This document shows, in pieces, positions 2,159-10,301 of a DNA stretch of 36,828 nt (its first letter is position 1; every line of letters begins with the position of its first letter). The position numbers and the translations under genes were made by a program. The DNA is taken from the NCBI GenBank assembly GCA_013204605.1, contig JABMNI010000079.1, forward strand, positions 1-36,828. Direction: 5' to 3'. The stretch is from Ignavibacteria bacterium (lineage in GTDB: Bacteria; Bacteroidota; Ignavibacteria; Kapaibacteriales; Kapaibacteriaceae). The notes beneath the pieces were generated by a model. The model had not been told where the DNA came from. It did no database searches and saw only the letters and a list, made by a program, of their open reading frames with translations.

Positions 2159-3940
2159 CTAATTGATCGAGTAGTCGATCTGCACTACCACGCCTTGCGA
2201 GCCCCCTTCAACAATAGATTTATCGAACCGAATTGTGCGCAGTGCGGAGATACTGAGCTTGAGGCCGGCGATGAGTTTTGCTGTGGCTGACATGTACATG
2301 CGGCTGCCTTGGCCCGACCCCATTACCGTGCGCATGTAGCCGTCGGTTTGTTGTTCGATGCTGTAGGGGGCTACATCGGGCGATTGCGCGGAGTAGACGG
2401 TGACTCTACTTTTGAACGAAAAAATTCCGTGCGCAAATGCAAGTTCGGCAAACGCTAGCGCACCGGTTTCGGAGGCGCGGTAGTTGTCGAACCACGCCCG
2501 ACGCACGTCGATTCTTGCGCGCATTTTTGTTTGCGGATTGATTGGTGTGGTGAGTTCGCATCGCATGGTTACTCGTTCCATGGTTATCATTTTTGTAAAC
2601 GAACTCTGCGGCAAATGATAGCCGTCGTCGTCAGATTCATACCGGAATCTACACGAAAACAACGCATGCTTGTTCAACTTGCGTTCGGCATCGAACGTTG
2701 CGTTTATGCCGTACGACATTAGGGGACGTCCGTACGATGCCGACACAATGCCATGTACATCCACACTACTTTCGGTGCGCCAACCACCTCGCTCGCTCCA
2801 TTGCATTCCCGCCGTAATGCCCCACTCATTTCCAATCGCCGACAGCGATGAAACCGCCGTTCCATACGGGTTGCGCACGTCTGCATGCATGTATCGAGCC
2901 GCCAATATCGCCGCACCATTCGAAGTTGGCAGTCGTAGAACCGCCGTCCCCAGTGGACGCAGCGAGTCATCCGCACCGGCTTCGAAAATTGCACTGATCG
3001 GTCCGATCATCGTGGAGCACGACACCGACGCTAATACGCGCCGCGCCTCATTCACAATTCGCATCGAATTCCTATCCACTGCCGAGGAGTACACCAACGA
3101 TTGAATATTAACACCCAACAAAACGCCACCAGAATTTCCACTACCTACCGCAAGATTTGCTGACGCGGAAACATTGGTTTCGTGCCTGCCATTCAACGTG
3201 ACGGAAGAGTAGAACGACATTATTGAAAGGGGCTTTTCAAAAAGTGAATCCGCGTAACGTAGAAGAATGCCTCGGTGCATGCCTTCTTGCCAGGTGGAAG
3301 TCCACGGACGAAACGCATGTTCACCATCAACGGACAGCGCAACAGAGAGTGGGGATCTCCCAAAGCCCCCTGCCGAACCTATAACTAAGCCTGCTCCGGC
3401 GCGTGCTGCAAAGTCGCCCACAGCTACGTTCAGGTTGCCCAGGCCAGAAACAAGCCAGCCACCTAGGGCGTTGGAAGTGGCCACGCGTTGCGTAATCATA
3501 CCCATCCGGCCGGCCTCGGTTCGCACGTCGATGCGTCCGTACGAGGTTGAGTTTGGCGAAGTCGAGGTGTTGGAAATTCTTGTGCGTGCTTGTGCGCCCG
3601 AGAAGAAATTTGTGCAGTTGCAATTCATTGTGGCGCAACTGAGCAGAATTATTTGTTGATCGATTGACAAACAAAGTGAGTCGGAAATTTCGTCGATTGA
3701 GAGGCTGGGAGAGCCCCTTACCAAACGCGAAATGCGCGATGCGGTTCGGGCGCCAATTCCGGGCAGCACCGTGAGTTGAGAGGGCTTCAGGCAGGGGAGG
3801 CAGATGGGGTCGTTGCGGAAAACGTCGATGGCGTCGATGAGCGGCGTGGCCCAAGCGGATTCGGCAGCGTCGTCGAATTGCGCGCGACATGTCTGGAATT
3901 GCATGGTTGCATAAAACAGTGTCGCAAACATCACGCGCAT
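2159..3940 (-). CDS. Helix-hairpin-helix protein with C-terminal beta-barrel-like domain
   Basis: Reading from ATG 3940 gives about 593 residues. There is a hydrophobic N-terminal export signal (MRVMFATLFYATMQF, then CRAQ). A single ComEA-like helix-hairpin-helix motif follows at about residues 52-75 (LTVLPGIGARTASRISRLV). After a Cys-rich linker (CATMNCNC) there are ~480 residues of alternating polar/hydrophobic, Gly/Ser-rich strands like an outer-membrane beta-barrel, without a terminal Phe. The frame stays open to 4132. However, those 64 extra residues lack signal-peptide character and cover a region with GAGTTGAATTG repeats, so the internal start is preferred. HhH motifs normally bind DNA backbone; combined with export and a barrel this suggests surface DNA handling, which is inference. 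It follows another outer-membrane-like gene on the same strand. Confidence 0.7.
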   Translation of the reverse strand: MRVMFATLFYATMQFQTCRAQFDDAAESAWATPLIDAIDVFRNDPICLPCLKPSQLTVLPGIGARTASRISRLVRGSPSLSIDEISDSLCLSIDQQIILLSCATMNCNCTNFFSGAQARTRISNTSTSPNSTSYGRIDVRTEAGRMGMITQRVATSNALGGWLVSGLGNLNVAVGDFAARAGAGLVIGSAGGFGRSPLSVALSVDGEHAFRPWTSTWQEGMHRGILLRYADSLFEKPLSIMSFYSSVTLNGRHETNVSASANLAVGSGNSGGVLLGVNIQSLVYSSAVDRNSMRIVNEARRVLASVSCSTMIGPISAIFEAGADDSLRPLGTAVLRLPTSNGAAILAARYMHADVRNPYGTAVSSLSAIGNEWGITAGMQWSERGGWRTESSVDVHGIVSASYGRPLMSYGINATFDAERKLNKHALFSCRFRYESDDDGYHLPQSSFTKMITMERVTMRCELTTPINPQTKMRARIDVRRAWFDNYRASETGALAFAELAFAHGIFSFKSRVTVYSAQSPDVAPYSIEQQTDGYMRTVMGSGQGSRMYMSATAKLIAGLKLSISALRTIRFDKSIVEGGSQGVVVQIDYSIN

Positions 3941-4110
3941 GAAAATGCACGAGAGAATATTGAACCGCTTTCTGCTATGAGTTGAATTGTAATGAGTTGA
4001 ATTGCGAAAAGGTGAACAGTGAAGTTGCGATTTGAGATGTTGCGAGAAGACTAAAGGAGATTTGGAAAGTAGAAGGTTGGAACGTAGGGAGTTGAGAAAC
4101 GTAGAAATAA

Positions 4111-4932
4111 TCATTTGCGGAACTCCAGACAAATGGAGGTGCGGAGGCCGAGGTGCATAATGAGGCGAGCGTCGAGTACGATGGTGACGTCGTCTTCGAG
4201 GAAGGTTTGGATTCCGAGGCCGAGTTGGAGCGGGAGGGTATTTATGTAAGTGCGGAGTGTGGCTGTGGAGTCGAATTGGTGTTGCAGGATGAAGAGGGCG
4301 GCAACGTTGCGCATGGCCGCCAGGTTGAGATCGAGTGAGATGGATGTATGAGATGTACCAGAGCCAGAACCACTGCTTTCAAGGAGAATGGCCGATGTGC
4401 CGATGGAGATACGAGGGGAAGCTGTGGAGGAAGAGGTGAATAGATCGGCAATAGCAAAGGCAATGGTGTAGTGGGGATCGATTTGTACGCGTACGGAGGT
4501 GGTGCAGGTGGCGCCGAGTTTGCTGCTGAAGCCCGACGCTTTTTGCCACGTGAGTTGTCCGCCGAGACCGGCGGTGAATTGGTCGGTAAGGGGGAAGGAG
4601 CGGACGGCCGACATCTTTAGACTCAACCAATCGGCCGAGGCTGAACCTTGAACTGCTAAGCCCGTTTCGAAAAATTCGAGGGGGAGCATGGCCGTAGCGT
4701 TTGATATTTCGAGCACTCCAAACGGGAGTGGCTCGGTTTTGAAGGAGGCGGAAAAGTTGGGTGAGTAGCTGGCAGATGCCTGCAGCATGTCTGTGGCCGA
4801 CAATATGCCGGTGCCTGTTACGCTTACCAATTGCGCCCCCACTACAGCCGAAAGCAAGCAAAGAGACAGGCAAAGGCATGAAAGAAATAGCAGGGTGCGT
4901 ACTTTAGTATAGTTTAATAATCGGAACATCAT
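4111..4932 (-). CDS. Outer-membrane beta-barrel-like hypothetical protein
   Basis: The 273-residue protein has a classical signal peptide (lysine/arginine n-region, then TLLFLSCLCLSLCLLSAVVGA, cleavage near residue 33). The rest is Ser/Thr/Gly/Leu-rich amphipathic strand sequence with few charges (for example SFPLTDQFTAGLGGQLTW and LQLGLGIQTFLEDDVTIVLD) and ends in LEFRK. This fits a 10-14 strand outer-membrane barrel, but no family is recognised. Its start codon lies one base from the start of the divergent porD-like gene, so any promoter must lie inside its neighbour. Upstream on the minus strand is GGAGTAAGGGGCT, which may act as a ribosome site and also contains the recurrent AAGGGGCT oligomer. 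It is probably co-transcribed with the HhH protein gene. Confidence 0.7.
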   Translation of the reverse strand: MMFRLLNYTKVRTLLFLSCLCLSLCLLSAVVGAQLVSVTGTGILSATDMLQASASYSPNFSASFKTEPLPFGVLEISNATAMLPLEFFETGLAVQGSASADWLSLKMSAVRSFPLTDQFTAGLGGQLTWQKASGFSSKLGATCTTSVRVQIDPHYTIAFAIADLFTSSSTASPRISIGTSAILLESSGSGSGTSHTSISLDLNLAAMRNVAALFILQHQFDSTATLRTYINTLPLQLGLGIQTFLEDDVTIVLDARLIMHLGLRTSICLEFRK

Positions 4933-4933
4933 A

Positions 4934-5857
4934 ATGAAAAAATGGATTAGCCCCTTACTCCTTATAGTGTACGCTACCGTTTGTACAGTGTGCGTTACCG
5001 TATGTAGTGTGACACTTAGCGCCCAGGAACTGAATCCAACGGTGAATGTGGTGCTTGATCAGCTTAGCATGGATGACCGGCAGGAAGTGAAAGGCATGGC
5101 GGCAACTGTGACCAATTACCTGAACAGCGTGCGGTATTCAAGCCGCGATTGGGAGGGTGAGCGGATTCCTGTTGACCTTACTATATATATCACCGGGAGG
5201 AGTGGAAATCAGTACAGCGCACGCCTAGCGGTGGTTAGCAAGCGTCTGGTGAATGGCGAAGTAGGCTCGGGCGCGGCCCTGCTACGCACCTACGATAAAA
5301 AATTCGATTTTACATGGTCATACAATCCAACGCTTACATATCAGCCGCTCCGGTACGATCCGTTTACCAGCGTGATTGATTTTTATATGCTGGTGGCCAT
5401 TGGTTTAGACCTTGATACGTATGAGGATTTGGGTGGCGACCGCATGTACGGCGCCGCAAAACAGATTGCGCAAAGTGGAAACGCTGCCGGCGTAACTCAG
5501 TTCAGCACAAATTATCAGCCGGGTGAGTTTACCCGCATGGCGCTCATTTCCGAGTTAACGGATTTGCGGTATGCCGGACTGCGCAGGCTGATGTATGACT
5601 ATCACGATGCCACCGATAAGTATGGAAAAAATCAAGAGGTCGGACGCAAGGCCATTGAACAAGTGATTTCTGACATCGCCGACTTTAAACGCAACTCCAT
5701 TAGTAACAGGTCGGTGCTTTTGCAGGCATTTTTCGATGCCAAGGGCATGGAGCTGGCCGACATTTTCAAGGGTCAACGCAATTCTCCTATTTGGACGTTA
5801 CTGAACTTTTTAGATGCCGGTAACAGCCAGATGTACGAGAAGGCCATGGGAGGATGA
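4934..5857 (+). CDS. porD: DUF4835 family protein (PorD-like, T9SS-associated)
   Basis: The 307-residue protein has a signal peptide (MKKWISPLLLIVYATVCTVCVTVCSVTLSAQ). The mature part has the layout of the Bacteroidota DUF4835 family: an N-terminal QELNPTVNVVLDQL segment, V-D-L-T-I-Y-I, a central FDFTWSYNPTLTYQPLRYDPFTSVIDFY block, LDLDTYEDLGGDRMY, and a helical C-terminus (ADFKRNSISNRSVLLQAFFDAKGMELADIF). The family is annotated as PorD in some resources and linked to the type IX secretion system. That fits the two sorting-domain proteins in this window. It is probably periplasmic. It is the first gene of a plus-strand run; its TGA is immediately followed by the GTG start of the tadA-rsmI gene. 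Confidence 0.75.
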   Translation: MKKWISPLLLIVYATVCTVCVTVCSVTLSAQELNPTVNVVLDQLSMDDRQEVKGMAATVTNYLNSVRYSSRDWEGERIPVDLTIYITGRSGNQYSARLAVVSKRLVNGEVGSGAALLRTYDKKFDFTWSYNPTLTYQPLRYDPFTSVIDFYMLVAIGLDLDTYEDLGGDRMYGAAKQIAQSGNAAGVTQFSTNYQPGEFTRMALISELTDLRYAGLRRLMYDYHDATDKYGKNQEVGRKAIEQVISDIADFKRNSISNRSVLLQAFFDAKGMELADIFKGQRNSPIWTLLNFLDAGNSQMYEKAMGG

Positions 5858-7075
5858 GTGTCAGAGACACAGCGCAAGCACGAACAATACATGCAGCAGG
5901 CACTTCAGCTTGCACTTCAAGCGGCTGAACACCACGATGTGCCAGTGGGCTGCGTAATTGTTCGAGATAACATAGTTGTGGGTAAGGGGGCTAACCAGAT
6001 CCAACTGACCGGTATACCTACCCAGCACGCGGAAATTGTTGCAATTGAAGATGCAACTCGGGCTATTGGCAATAAATTTTTAGACGACTGCACCCTATAT
6101 GTTACACTCGAGCCATGCCTGATGTGTGCCGGTGCCATTGTGCTAGCCCGCATACCTACAGTGGTGTATGCTGCGTCCGACGCAAAAACCGGCGCCGTGC
6201 GATCGGTTTTTGAAATGCTCGAAAACAAACATCTCAACCACACCTGCGTGGTGCGCACCGGAATTCTTGAAGCCGAAGCCTCTGAAATGCTCAGTGCATT
6301 TTTCGCTGACAAACGGAAGGCGGCTCCCGTCGAAGACAACGTTGGAACAAACGTTGGAACAATTGCCGGACTTAACAGCGCGGTGACCGGTACGCTGTGG
6401 CTTGTACCTACGCCGCTTGGAAATTTAGATGATGTAACAAAGCGGGCGTTAATAACGCTGCGCGAGGCCGACATTATTCTGTGCGAAGACACTCGCCGAA
6501 CCGGTCAGTTGCTTAGGCATTACGGAATTATTCCAAAACGTCTGATGAGCAATCACGACCACAATGAGCGTCAGCGGTCCGAGTACATCCCCCAGCTTTT
6601 GCAAGAAGGAAAAAGCATAGCCTTAGTTTCAGACGCGGGCATGCCCACCATAAGCGATCCCGGTTACCGAACTGTGGAAGCCTGTGTGGCAAAGGGATGC
6701 AAGGTAGTGGCACTGCCGGGCGGCACGGCAGCAATTACGGCGGTCGCCGCATCGGGTCTGCCAACAAATAAGATTTATTTTGCGGGATTCCCGCCGCAAA
6801 AAAAAGGCAGGGCCACATTCTTAAAGGAAGTTTTGGAAACGCCGGCAACCATTGTGTTTTATGAATCGCCACACCGAGTGCACCAATTAGTATCTGAAAT
6901 ACAGGGACTGGTAAGCCCCTTAACAAAAATTGTACTGGCGCGCGAGTTGACAAAAATGCATGAAGAATTCATTCGCGGAACGGCTGCCGAGGTCGAAAAA
7001 GTACTGTCGGACAGAGGCGGCGTAAAAGGCGAATGCGTGGTTTTGGTGAGTAACACAGCTGTCGAGGTTGAGTGA
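5858..7075 (+). CDS. Fusion of tRNA adenosine deaminase TadA and 16S rRNA methyltransferase RsmI
   Basis: The 405-residue protein is two complete enzymes in one frame. Residues ~5-155 are TadA, which converts A34 to inosine in tRNA-Arg(ACG). The zinc ligands His57 (T-Q-H-A-E), Cys87 and Cys90 (P-C-L-M-C) and the proton-shuttling Glu59 are present. After a ~22-residue linker with a repeated NVGT, residues ~178-405 are RsmI, the 2'-O-methyltransferase of C1402 in 16S rRNA. It shows LVPTPLGNLDD, ILCEDTRRTG, SDAGMPTISDPG, LPGGTAAITA and FYESPHR. No stop or shift separates the halves. The GTG start directly abuts the porD-like stop codon, with GGGAGG just upstream as ribosome site. The 3' end overlaps tmk by one base. 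Both activities tune decoding, so the fusion makes functional sense. Confidence 0.9.
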   Translation: MSETQRKHEQYMQQALQLALQAAEHHDVPVGCVIVRDNIVVGKGANQIQLTGIPTQHAEIVAIEDATRAIGNKFLDDCTLYVTLEPCLMCAGAIVLARIPTVVYAASDAKTGAVRSVFEMLENKHLNHTCVVRTGILEAEASEMLSAFFADKRKAAPVEDNVGTNVGTIAGLNSAVTGTLWLVPTPLGNLDDVTKRALITLREADIILCEDTRRTGQLLRHYGIIPKRLMSNHDHNERQRSEYIPQLLQEGKSIALVSDAGMPTISDPGYRTVEACVAKGCKVVALPGGTAAITAVAASGLPTNKIYFAGFPPQKKGRATFLKEVLETPATIVFYESPHRVHQLVSEIQGLVSPLTKIVLARELTKMHEEFIRGTAAEVEKVLSDRGGVKGECVVLVSNTAVEVE

Positions 7076-7698
7076 TGTTTATTACGTTCGAAGGTATCGA
7101 CGGAAGCGGAAAATCTACGCAGCTCACCATGTTGCGGGAGTGGTTGGAGGCGCAAAATAAATCGGCTATTGTTGTGCGTGAACCCGGGGCAACGAAGTTA
7201 AGCGAGGAGCTCCGAGCCATTTTGCTGAGTAACAAGCACACCATTACATCTACCGCGGAGTTGCTACTATTTAGTGCGGCGCGTACGCAATTGGTGGAAA
7301 AAGTGATTAGGCCCGCTTTGGAAAGGGGCGATATAGTGCTCTGCGACCGATATGTGGATTCTACTACGGCGTATCAGGGATATGGCCGACAATTAGACAT
7401 GGCCGAGGTGGAAGCTTGTAACAGGATAGCTGTTCAAGGACTCATGCCGGTTGTAACGTTCTTTATAGATGTTCCATACGAAGAGGCGCAGCAGCGAATG
7501 CAGTTTTTAGTGAACAGTGCCGAGCCAGACCGGATGGAAAGAAGTGGGAAGCAGTTTTTCGACCGGGTACGGCAGGGATATTTAACCATTGCACACCAAG
7601 AGCCCACCAGGTTTGTGGTAGTTGATGGAGTTCGACCTGCCGAGGCCATTCACCTAGACATAATACAACAGTTTCAATCCGTATCTTTACGGTTCTAA
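7075..7698 (+). CDS. tmk: Thymidylate kinase
   Basis: The protein phosphorylates dTMP to dTDP for DNA synthesis in the cytoplasm. Visible motifs are the P-loop FEGIDGSGKST at the N-terminus, VREPGATKLSEELR, the DRY-type motif LCDRYVDSTTAYQGYGR and a LID-region SAEPDRMERSGKQFFDRV. The length of 207 residues is normal. I chose ATG at 7075 because the family starts MFITFEG; a GTG three bases upstream would add only one Met. The start overlaps the stop of the tadA-rsmI gene in TGATG, implying translational coupling. Confidence 0.95.
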   Translation: MFITFEGIDGSGKSTQLTMLREWLEAQNKSAIVVREPGATKLSEELRAILLSNKHTITSTAELLLFSAARTQLVEKVIRPALERGDIVLCDRYVDSTTAYQGYGRQLDMAEVEACNRIAVQGLMPVVTFFIDVPYEEAQQRMQFLVNSAEPDRMERSGKQFFDRVRQGYLTIAHQEPTRFVVVDGVRPAEAIHLDIIQQFQSVSLRF

Positions 7699-7721
7699 TC
7701 AATAACAAGTAGAATCTCAGC

Positions 7722-10301
7722 ATGAACAGACTATTTCAAGTACTATCAGTTTTTGTATTCGGAAGTATTGTAGCGTTTGCGGGCACCTCGATTACTATTG
7801 ACGCCAGAAAAATAATGCCTACGATAAATAGAATCGTAAAGCAAAATGATGTGCAAGTAACATCTAGCATTCGTACCGTAATGCTGCAGCGCGACGTAGC
7901 GGCGCAGACCTTTAACGCGGGTGTCGATAACATTACCATTTCAAATTTTGCACTACCGTCAAATCCTAACGCCACGTTGCAGCTTAAGCGCTCGGCACCG
8001 GTGTTTGATGCGAACTCGCAGTTTTTAATCAATACTCCTAACGGTAAAAAACCATTCAAGGTTGGACCAGTAGCATCGTATTCAGGAACTATTGCTGAAG
8101 AGCCAGGTGCTTGGGTTACGTTGCATTATAGCAACGGAGATTTAACGGGCTTTGTTCAACACACAAATGGTGTTAGAACGGTGATTGCTAAGGATTACGC
8201 CCTTCGCGAAACTCAGCAAACCATGCCGCACGTGATTGGTTTGGAAAAGGACTTAACACCGGGTGCCGACCTTGGAAATTTCCTTTGTGGTAATGATGAT
8301 CTTCCCGTCGACCTGAAAGGCGTTGCAGAGGCTATGGCCATTACCGGTACTCGAAAAGATTACACGGAGCACGTACAGGGGTACAGTTTGAAGCAGTTAA
8401 AGGTTGCTGTTGTGCTGAGAGAAGATATCTACGAGTTGTTAAATCAGCGTGGATTGACCCCCGAGCAAATTGCTCAGCATTTCGTCAAAATTTACGCCGC
8501 AATGTCGCAAGCATACGAAGAAGACCTAGGCACTCGCCTGTTCTTCGAATACTTCCTTATGCATACTACCGATGCTCCATCTGGATATACGAACGACGGT
8601 CTCTCGCCTGGAGATTTGCTGGAAGAGTTTTCTTTAGATTGGTCTTCAGGCTTTAAGAGTGTTGACCGTGCTGTGGCTCACCTTTATACAAGAATTAAAC
8701 CATCTGGTTCTGGTTCGTTTGTTGGCGGAATTGCTTACGGTGGTCAGTCGGGGGTAAGACTTTGTGTAAAAAGCCACCAAGGTGGGTATGGAGTGAGCAC
8801 GGTATACTTAAATCCTGGTACAGTGATTCCTGGCAATCCTAATATTGCAAATGGGTTTACATGGGACGTTTTTGTAAGTGCTCATGAGATTGGTCATAAC
8901 ATTGGTGCGGCACACACGCACAGTTGTTATTGGAGTCCACCTGTAGATACGTGTCAACTTAAGCGAGACGGAACTGATGCGTGCTACGATGAACTAAGTT
9001 TCAGGAAAGTGCGCCCTGGTACAATCATGAGCTACTGTCATTTAGTGAATGGAAGTTCAGTGCCGCTTATCTTTGGTACGCGCGTTTCAGAGCGGATGCG
9101 TGGATGGATTGATGCAGCTTCCTCATGCAGTTTTGCAATAACGGAACCGCGAGTTACAATTACATCACCAAGGGGTTTGGAAACGTGGAACGCTGGGTCG
9201 ACAGTTACCATTCTATGGAAAACTGCCATGGTGCAAACCGTAAATCTAGACTACTCATCAAATGATGGGTCAACCTGGAGTGAAGTTAAACATGGATTAG
9301 CTGCAAGTGACGAACTGTACGCTTGGAAGGTGCCAGCAGTAAACGCACCAAAATTGTTGATCCGAATTAGCGATGCTAATAATGCCGCCGTGAATAACGT
9401 GGCTCCGGCGTACTACGCAATTTCGTTACCGTTGAGTTTAACTTCTCCTTCGGGTGGTGAGCGCTTAGGTAGAAAAAGTAGCTTTGCAATTCGTTGGAAT
9501 AAGGATGCCGGCGCAGGTAGTGTGACGGTTGAATTTGCACCCGATGGGACTACATGGTCTGAGTTAGCGGTTGTGCCTACGGGGACGTCGTATTCTTGGA
9601 CGGTGGCTGACATTGAAACAAGCAAAGCTCGGGTTCGCGTGAAGTTAACTACCTCCCCGAATGTTGTTTCGCAAAGCGAAGAGTTTTCAATTGGTACGCC
9701 ACGGTTTGAGTGGTTACTACCGGCCGATGGAATTATTCTTTGTAAAGATGTAGAAAACCAGTATAACTGGTCGGGTGACTTTATTGATAAGATTCGAATT
9801 CAGTATTCTACAGACAATGGCGGAAACTGGCGAAATGCCATTCAATCATTAAATGTGCCCGTGACAATGTGGCAGATTTTCAGCAAAAATTCAGGAATGC
9901 TTTCTATTCCTGACGCAACGCCCATCATTATGAGAATTTATGATGATGCAACTACCGATGTGTTGGGAACCCGTGCTGATATGACCATGGGAACTTGTAC
10001 AACACCTACTTCCGTTAGCGAAAATTCAACACTGGCGTCAGTACTTTCTATTGAAAGTGTTACGCCTAATCCGGCAACGGATAGAGCGATGATTCGAGTA
10101 TCGCATAGAGAAAATTCATCGGTGGAGATTTTTGTCGTGGATGCTTCCGGACGCACTATTCAATTGCTGAATAGTCAAACCGGTGGTTCTAATGTCAGCG
10201 ATATTTCTGTACCTCTAGACAAAATTGCTAGCGGTCAGTATCAACTTGTGGTTCGCAGCGGAACAGACCAAGCGAGTGCTTCATTACGTATTGCTCGTTA
10301 A
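7722..10301 (+). CDS. Secreted reprolysin-like (M12B-type) metalloprotease with T9SS sorting domain
   Basis: The 859-residue protein carries a signal peptide (MNRLFQVLSVFVFGSIVAFAG) and a ~180-residue propeptide-like region containing a lone Cys. The zinc metalloprotease domain spans about residues 215-465. The catalytic motif HEIGHNIGAAH is at 388-398, followed by a Met-turn candidate (TIMSYCH), as in metzincins of the M12B/ADAM-like group. Two or three Ig-like/fibronectin-like modules of the S-P-x-G-G-E...W type come next (ITSPRGLETWNAGS, LTSPSGGERLG, WLLPADGI). A T9SS C-terminal domain starts at SIESVTPNPATDRAMI. It is probably a secreted, surface-attached protease for protein degradation. 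No AAGGGGCT-type motif occurs in it, unlike the neighbouring housekeeping genes. Confidence 0.9.
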   Translation: MNRLFQVLSVFVFGSIVAFAGTSITIDARKIMPTINRIVKQNDVQVTSSIRTVMLQRDVAAQTFNAGVDNITISNFALPSNPNATLQLKRSAPVFDANSQFLINTPNGKKPFKVGPVASYSGTIAEEPGAWVTLHYSNGDLTGFVQHTNGVRTVIAKDYALRETQQTMPHVIGLEKDLTPGADLGNFLCGNDDLPVDLKGVAEAMAITGTRKDYTEHVQGYSLKQLKVAVVLREDIYELLNQRGLTPEQIAQHFVKIYAAMSQAYEEDLGTRLFFEYFLMHTTDAPSGYTNDGLSPGDLLEEFSLDWSSGFKSVDRAVAHLYTRIKPSGSGSFVGGIAYGGQSGVRLCVKSHQGGYGVSTVYLNPGTVIPGNPNIANGFTWDVFVSAHEIGHNIGAAHTHSCYWSPPVDTCQLKRDGTDACYDELSFRKVRPGTIMSYCHLVNGSSVPLIFGTRVSERMRGWIDAASSCSFAITEPRVTITSPRGLETWNAGSTVTILWKTAMVQTVNLDYSSNDGSTWSEVKHGLAASDELYAWKVPAVNAPKLLIRISDANNAAVNNVAPAYYAISLPLSLTSPSGGERLGRKSSFAIRWNKDAGAGSVTVEFAPDGTTWSELAVVPTGTSYSWTVADIETSKARVRVKLTTSPNVVSQSEEFSIGTPRFEWLLPADGIILCKDVENQYNWSGDFIDKIRIQYSTDNGGNWRNAIQSLNVPVTMWQIFSKNSGMLSIPDATPIIMRIYDDATTDVLGTRADMTMGTCTTPTSVSENSTLASVLSIESVTPNPATDRAMIRVSHRENSSVEIFVVDASGRTIQLLNSQTGGSNVSDISVPLDKIASGQYQLVVRSGTDQASASLRIAR

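Follow-up and report, generated by a model that had tools for sequence, protein, structure and literature searches.

We have analysed two neighbouring genes in a 36,828-nucleotide stretch of DNA from an Ignavibacteria bacterium, hereafter the window. The larger gene encodes a protein in which a signal peptide is followed by an HhH domain and then by a predicted beta-barrel, and which we call the HhH-barrel protein. The smaller gene, its partner, lies upstream of it and back to back with the divergent gene porD. The features of the locus are as follows.

2159-3940, minus strand: HhH-barrel gene, 593 aa from the ATG at 3940; signal peptide, HhH domain and predicted beta-barrel
3881-3940, minus strand: signal peptide, residues 1-20, from the sequence; predicted cleavage before Q21 (AQ), with an AQ or SQ site in most relatives
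3629-3847, minus strand: HhH domain, residues 32-104, from AlphaFold2 helices, with ComEA as the nearest solved relative and HHH_3 in relatives
3752-3766, minus strand: hairpin LPGIG, residues 59-63; GhG is intact in this protein and degenerate across most of the HhH-barrel family
2162-3604, minus strand: predicted outer-membrane beta-barrel, residues 113-593; about 24 strands, from AlphaFold2 and hydrophobicity alternation
4111-4932, minus strand: partner gene, 273 aa with a signal peptide; a diverged member of the PorV/PorQ (FadL-like) family, from hhalign to the PorV-like neighbours of distant homologues
4934-5857, plus strand: porD, T9SS protein (DUF4835), with NF052317 T9SS_PorD just above the cut-off; outside the pair, in the same place in relatives

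The export signal of the HhH-barrel protein reads MRVMFATLFYATMQFQTCRA^QFDD, and among 30 relatives, most have AQ or SQ at the corresponding site. An alternative TTG start at 4132 would lengthen the reading frame, but the ATG at 3940 is likelier because the signal peptide it yields has the AQ end found in most relatives. The AlphaFold2 model, which was built on an alignment of five sequences (mean pLDDT 65.8, pTM 0.65), showed helices at residues 32-43, 53-56, 64-76, 82-89 and 93-102 and, after these HhH helices (32-104), about 24 strands across residues 113-592. Averaged over the family, the within-strand hydrophobicity alternation was 1.12 versus 0.51 +/- 0.08 for within-strand shuffles, and none of 2000 shuffles reached 1.12. 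The final strand, QGVVVQIDYSI, resembles a beta-signal. With both a signal peptide and amphipathic strands found in the protein, residues 113-593 are predicted to form an outer-membrane beta-barrel. The sequence-only reading had described an export signal, one HhH motif and about 480 barrel-like residues at 2159-3940, and the signal peptide, the HhH of the relatives and the modelled strands agree with that description. The protein is conserved in Bacteroidota, appears from its sequence to belong to the outer membrane, and is uncharacterised. We found no description of this architecture in the literature searched, in which coverage of subscription journals was thin.

The partner protein of the window gave no NCBIfam match to NF033709 (PorV_fam). 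The neighbours of the HhH-barrel gene in distant families score with this PorV/PorQ model at E values of 7e-23 to 4e-6 (27-82 bits, cut-off 90), and profile-profile comparison relates the partner to these neighbours with an hhalign probability of 96.8 and an E value of 2e-10. A P-x-PFGL-x-EL-like motif is common to both. These comparisons place the partner among the PorV/PorQ (FadL-like) barrel proteins, as a highly diverged member. Many relatives show the HhH-barrel gene and its upstream neighbour in the same orientation, often with an overlap of a few bases, and porD is divergent beyond the neighbour. The same order of HhH-barrel and partner genes recurs in distant families, and some families do not show this context (e.g., loci L071, L081, L082 and L084). 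The earlier proposal of a second barrel-like gene with a signal peptide, upstream and on the same strand, is supported by this conserved pairing and by the PorV/PorQ relation. In the neighbourhoods read, no competence gene was found beside the HhH-barrel gene. Beyond porD, the frame at 5858-7075 (plus strand), judged by sequence, apparently encodes a fusion of a TadA-like tRNA adenosine deaminase and an RsmI-like rRNA methyltransferase, and relatives are alike in this. The contig opens with a run of 18 C (positions 1-18), which is possibly an assembly artefact.

Relation of the HhH domain to ComEA

A ComEA-type HhH domain (PF12836/TIGR01259) is recognisable in the HhH-barrel family, both by profile and by distant homologues. 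In the protein of the window, Pfam detected the HhH weakly (RecR_HhH, E 0.005) and below the HHH_3 cut-off. Four distant homologues pass the HHH_3 cut-off with E values of 8e-19 to 7e-7, and TIGR01259 comE matches one of the distant homologues (E 9e-13). The best solved match of the family profile is 2duy, a ComEA-related protein of T. thermophilus (E 7e-4). On the one hand, the protein resembles ComEA in having an exported HhH domain. On the other hand, ComEA is small, soluble or TM-anchored and has no barrel, whereas the HhH-barrel protein adds about 480 predicted barrel residues.

The HhH motif at residues 56-70 reads LTVLPGIGARTASRI, and it had been read as a binder of the DNA backbone. 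ComEA keeps GhG hairpins and basic residues, whereas the domain of the HhH-barrel family is acidic and degenerate. The expected GhG hairpin is intact in the protein of the window, but it is degenerate in most of the phylum: in the wider families it reads GhS, YhS, LhS, AhD and others, and GhG is kept in few relatives. The net charge of residues 36-104 is -1 on average across the family and falls to -7 or lower, compared with +7 for the small ComEA of the same genome. Vibrio cholerae ComEA depends on a pair of lysines that follows the hairpin (PMC3879209). Here the positions of the basic pair are R65 and T66, so that the pair is absent, and position 66 is basic in none of the 29 alignment rows. 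The ComEA combination of a GhG hairpin and basic backbone-contact residues was thus not found in the family. We consider the missing pair an argument against DNA binding and not proof, because the first motif of the small ComEA of this genome lacks a basic pair as well; its second motif has one. The HhH of the HhH-barrel protein is probably not a DNA grip of the ComEA kind, and the degenerate hairpin, the mean charge and the missing pair lend no support to the idea of a backbone binder. The HhH found here should not be taken for a DNA grip, since most lineages show it in a seemingly degenerate form.

In genus g2, five genomes carry HhH-less copies of 506-550 residues, in which the barrel and the signal peptide are kept (loci L069, L104, L105, L106 and L107). 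Cysteines 47, 50, 90, 107 and 109 recur in many members of the window's own family and are rarely found elsewhere; they would suit an oxidising periplasm.

Distribution of the gene and of competence genes

A search with the single sequence found the HhH-barrel gene in 49 of 60 relatives, and the profile search found it in 243 of 296 genomes of the phylum (233 at E <= 1e-10), usually in one copy. Because of this conservation, chance can be excluded as the origin of the HhH-barrel arrangement. All seven genera (g1-g7) of the window's family carry the gene. Family f32 does not have it, in f29, f31, f6, f45 and part of f42 it is weak or missing, and about 6 of 54 families are without it.

ComEC was found in 288 and DprA in 290 of the 296 genomes. 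The eight ComEC-less genomes are seven members of f45, none of which has the HhH-barrel gene, and the fragmented genome G299. Dense sampling of the order of f45 gave the same result, as 16 of 16 f45 genomes have neither ComEC nor the HhH-barrel gene. DprA is absent in three of the seven f45 genomes of the phylum sample and divergent in the other four. In G299 and G340, both fragmented, the HhH-barrel gene is present and ComEC was undetected. A raw Fisher test of ComEC versus HhH-barrel gave 3e-5, ignoring relatedness. Because f45 is one family, its co-loss may be one event, and with the gene missing from about 6 of 54 families, the probability of chance agreement at the family level is about 0.11 (roughly 1 in 9). 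In f42, genomes with the HhH-barrel gene have a better-conserved ComEC (66 of 68 pairings, p 0.001, uncorrected for phylogeny). A link of the distribution to competence genes had been put forward for testing, and it is supported in part: the gene is absent throughout the ComEC-less f45 and does not track T9SS, but 46 ComEC-positive genomes of the phylum sample, including all of f32, are without it, and many genomes of f32 and other families have ComEC and DprA without the gene.

The secretin domain PF00263 was found in none of the 60 relatives, while control genomes were positive. A small ComEA, separate from the HhH-barrel protein, is present in 59 of the 60; that of this genome is TM-anchored and has two GhG hairpins. 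Since ComEC, DprA and small ComEA are present and a secretin is not, the Bacteroidota considered here need a different port. The PilQ secretin of transformation type IV pili would fill the same place, as an outer-membrane port, and it has no sequence relation to the HhH-barrel protein. Natural transformation is on record in Bacteroidota that have no pilus homologues (PMC8459023).

Possible roles of the two barrels

We consider that the two proteins may form a two-barrel outer-membrane complex, most likely one that passes or receives DNA in natural transformation, and we give this reading a probability of roughly 0.4. DNA passage is the leading explanation because the gene is independent of SprA and absent from the ComEC-less f45, and because a secretin is lacking while a separate small ComEA is present. 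The complex would consist of the large barrel with its periplasmic HhH (2159-3940) and the small PorV/FadL-type barrel (4111-4932). DNA would cross through the large barrel or alongside it. On the periplasmic side, the HhH would serve as a plug or dock from which the small ComEA would receive the DNA, and one strand would then be carried inward by ComEC. Against DNA passage stand the acidic, degenerate HhH and its loss in five genomes, the 46 ComEC-positive genomes without the gene, the possibly single co-loss in f45, the two fragmented genomes (G299 and G340) with the gene and no detected ComEC, and the lack of an adjoining competence gene in the neighbourhoods read. The conserved, mostly single-copy pair can accordingly be named as a candidate for outer-membrane DNA entry in Bacteroidota without pili or a secretin. 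The broader proposition, that in most Bacteroidota the HhH-barrel protein and its PorV-like partner are the DNA translocon of the outer membrane, working without pilus or secretin, seems to us rather unlikely.

A parallel exists in Riemerella, where transformation without pilus homologues involves an HhH protein and a candidate barrel protein among RA0C_RS02645, RS04915, RS04920 and RS09020 (PMC8459023). There the HhH and the barrel are on separate proteins, whereas the HhH-barrel protein joins both in one. That the Riemerella screen for transformation genes pointed to other outer-membrane candidates counts against a DNA-passage role of our pair (PMC8459023).

A different function of the two barrels comes next, and we regard it as a serious contender. 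In this case, the complex would serve the export, assembly or uptake of cargo other than DNA, and the HhH fold would be a protein-docking domain. In its favour, the HhH is acidic and degenerate, the partner belongs to the PorV/PorQ family, and f32 has ComEC without the HhH-barrel gene. Furthermore, pairs of a large and a FadL-type barrel recur in Bacteroidota. PorV is docked on SprA (PMC10994853), and this T9SS translocon resembles our pair in its large barrel with a PorV-family partner; the pair also has porD next door. SprA is nevertheless unrelated to the HhH-barrel protein and much larger (frames of about 2400-2700 aa), and the pair persists without it. In the BAM complex of Bacteroidota, the FadL homologue BamG is bound to BamA (PMC12578637), which again pairs a large barrel with one of FadL type. 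Unlike BamA, the HhH-barrel protein showed neither POTRA domains nor BamA similarity, and its partner is nearer to PorV/PorQ than to BamG. A complex for other cargo leaves two observations unexplained, namely the absence of the gene from the ComEC-less f45 and the ComEA kinship of the domain.

Type IX secretion and the repeated AAGGGG(G)CT word

An accessory role in type IX secretion is suggested by porD, which adjoins the pair divergently throughout most of the class and also in f34, and by the PorV/PorQ-like partner, but it is improbable in view of the distribution. SprA is absent in 68 of the 296 genomes, and 66 of these 68 retain the HhH-barrel gene (counts tallied by hand from genome listings), among them the large family f28 and at least two other lineages. 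Conversely, all seven f45 genomes of the phylum sample have SprA and lack the HhH-barrel gene. The HhH-barrel protein is therefore not a part of T9SS, and the distribution separates the candidate pair from that system. At another locus (L085), an SprA-like N-terminal frame at 6914-7999 is separated from the small ComEA gene (632-1177) by about 6 kb, and the presence of SprA in that genome was confirmed separately.

The window carries 15 copies of AAGGGGCT versus 0.8 expected. Genome-wide there are 973 copies (486 and 487 per strand) versus 70 of the reversed word. Sites of the form A(A/G)GGGGCT lie, for example, at 3227-3234, 3712-3719 and 4949-4956 of the window. The flanks prefer T-K-G upstream and Y at +11. 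We rejected a terminator or Chi-like role for the word, as there were no close pairs among 145 sites, the share inside genes (132 of 145) equalled the base-pair share (p 0.64), and one sampled single-contig relative showed no replication-strand bias (134:117, p 0.31). From its pattern the word resembles an uptake signal, and it may be regarded as a candidate for one outside Pasteurellaceae and Neisseriaceae.

The HhH-barrel protein is very unlikely to read this word: the strong enrichment and the uptake-signal look (equal strands, no replication-strand bias, flanking preferences) would be in keeping with a reader, but word and gene dissociate both ways, and HhH motifs show no sequence preference in DNA binding (PMC3879209). 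All seven genera of the window's family have the gene, and the word is strongly over-represented in only four of them (g1, g2, g4 and g5); g3, g6, g7 and other families carry the gene without the word. The five genomes with an HhH-less copy still carry 748-1005 words. The suggested link between the gene and the word was accordingly given up. In one genome (G004, C1:800001-820000, locus L129), 20 kb are without the word, which elsewhere occurs about once per 2 kb, and nearly all genes there lie on one strand; this may be acquired DNA. In another genome (G024, loci L121-L123), a different word, GTTTCAATCCA, is enriched and is possibly a CRISPR repeat.
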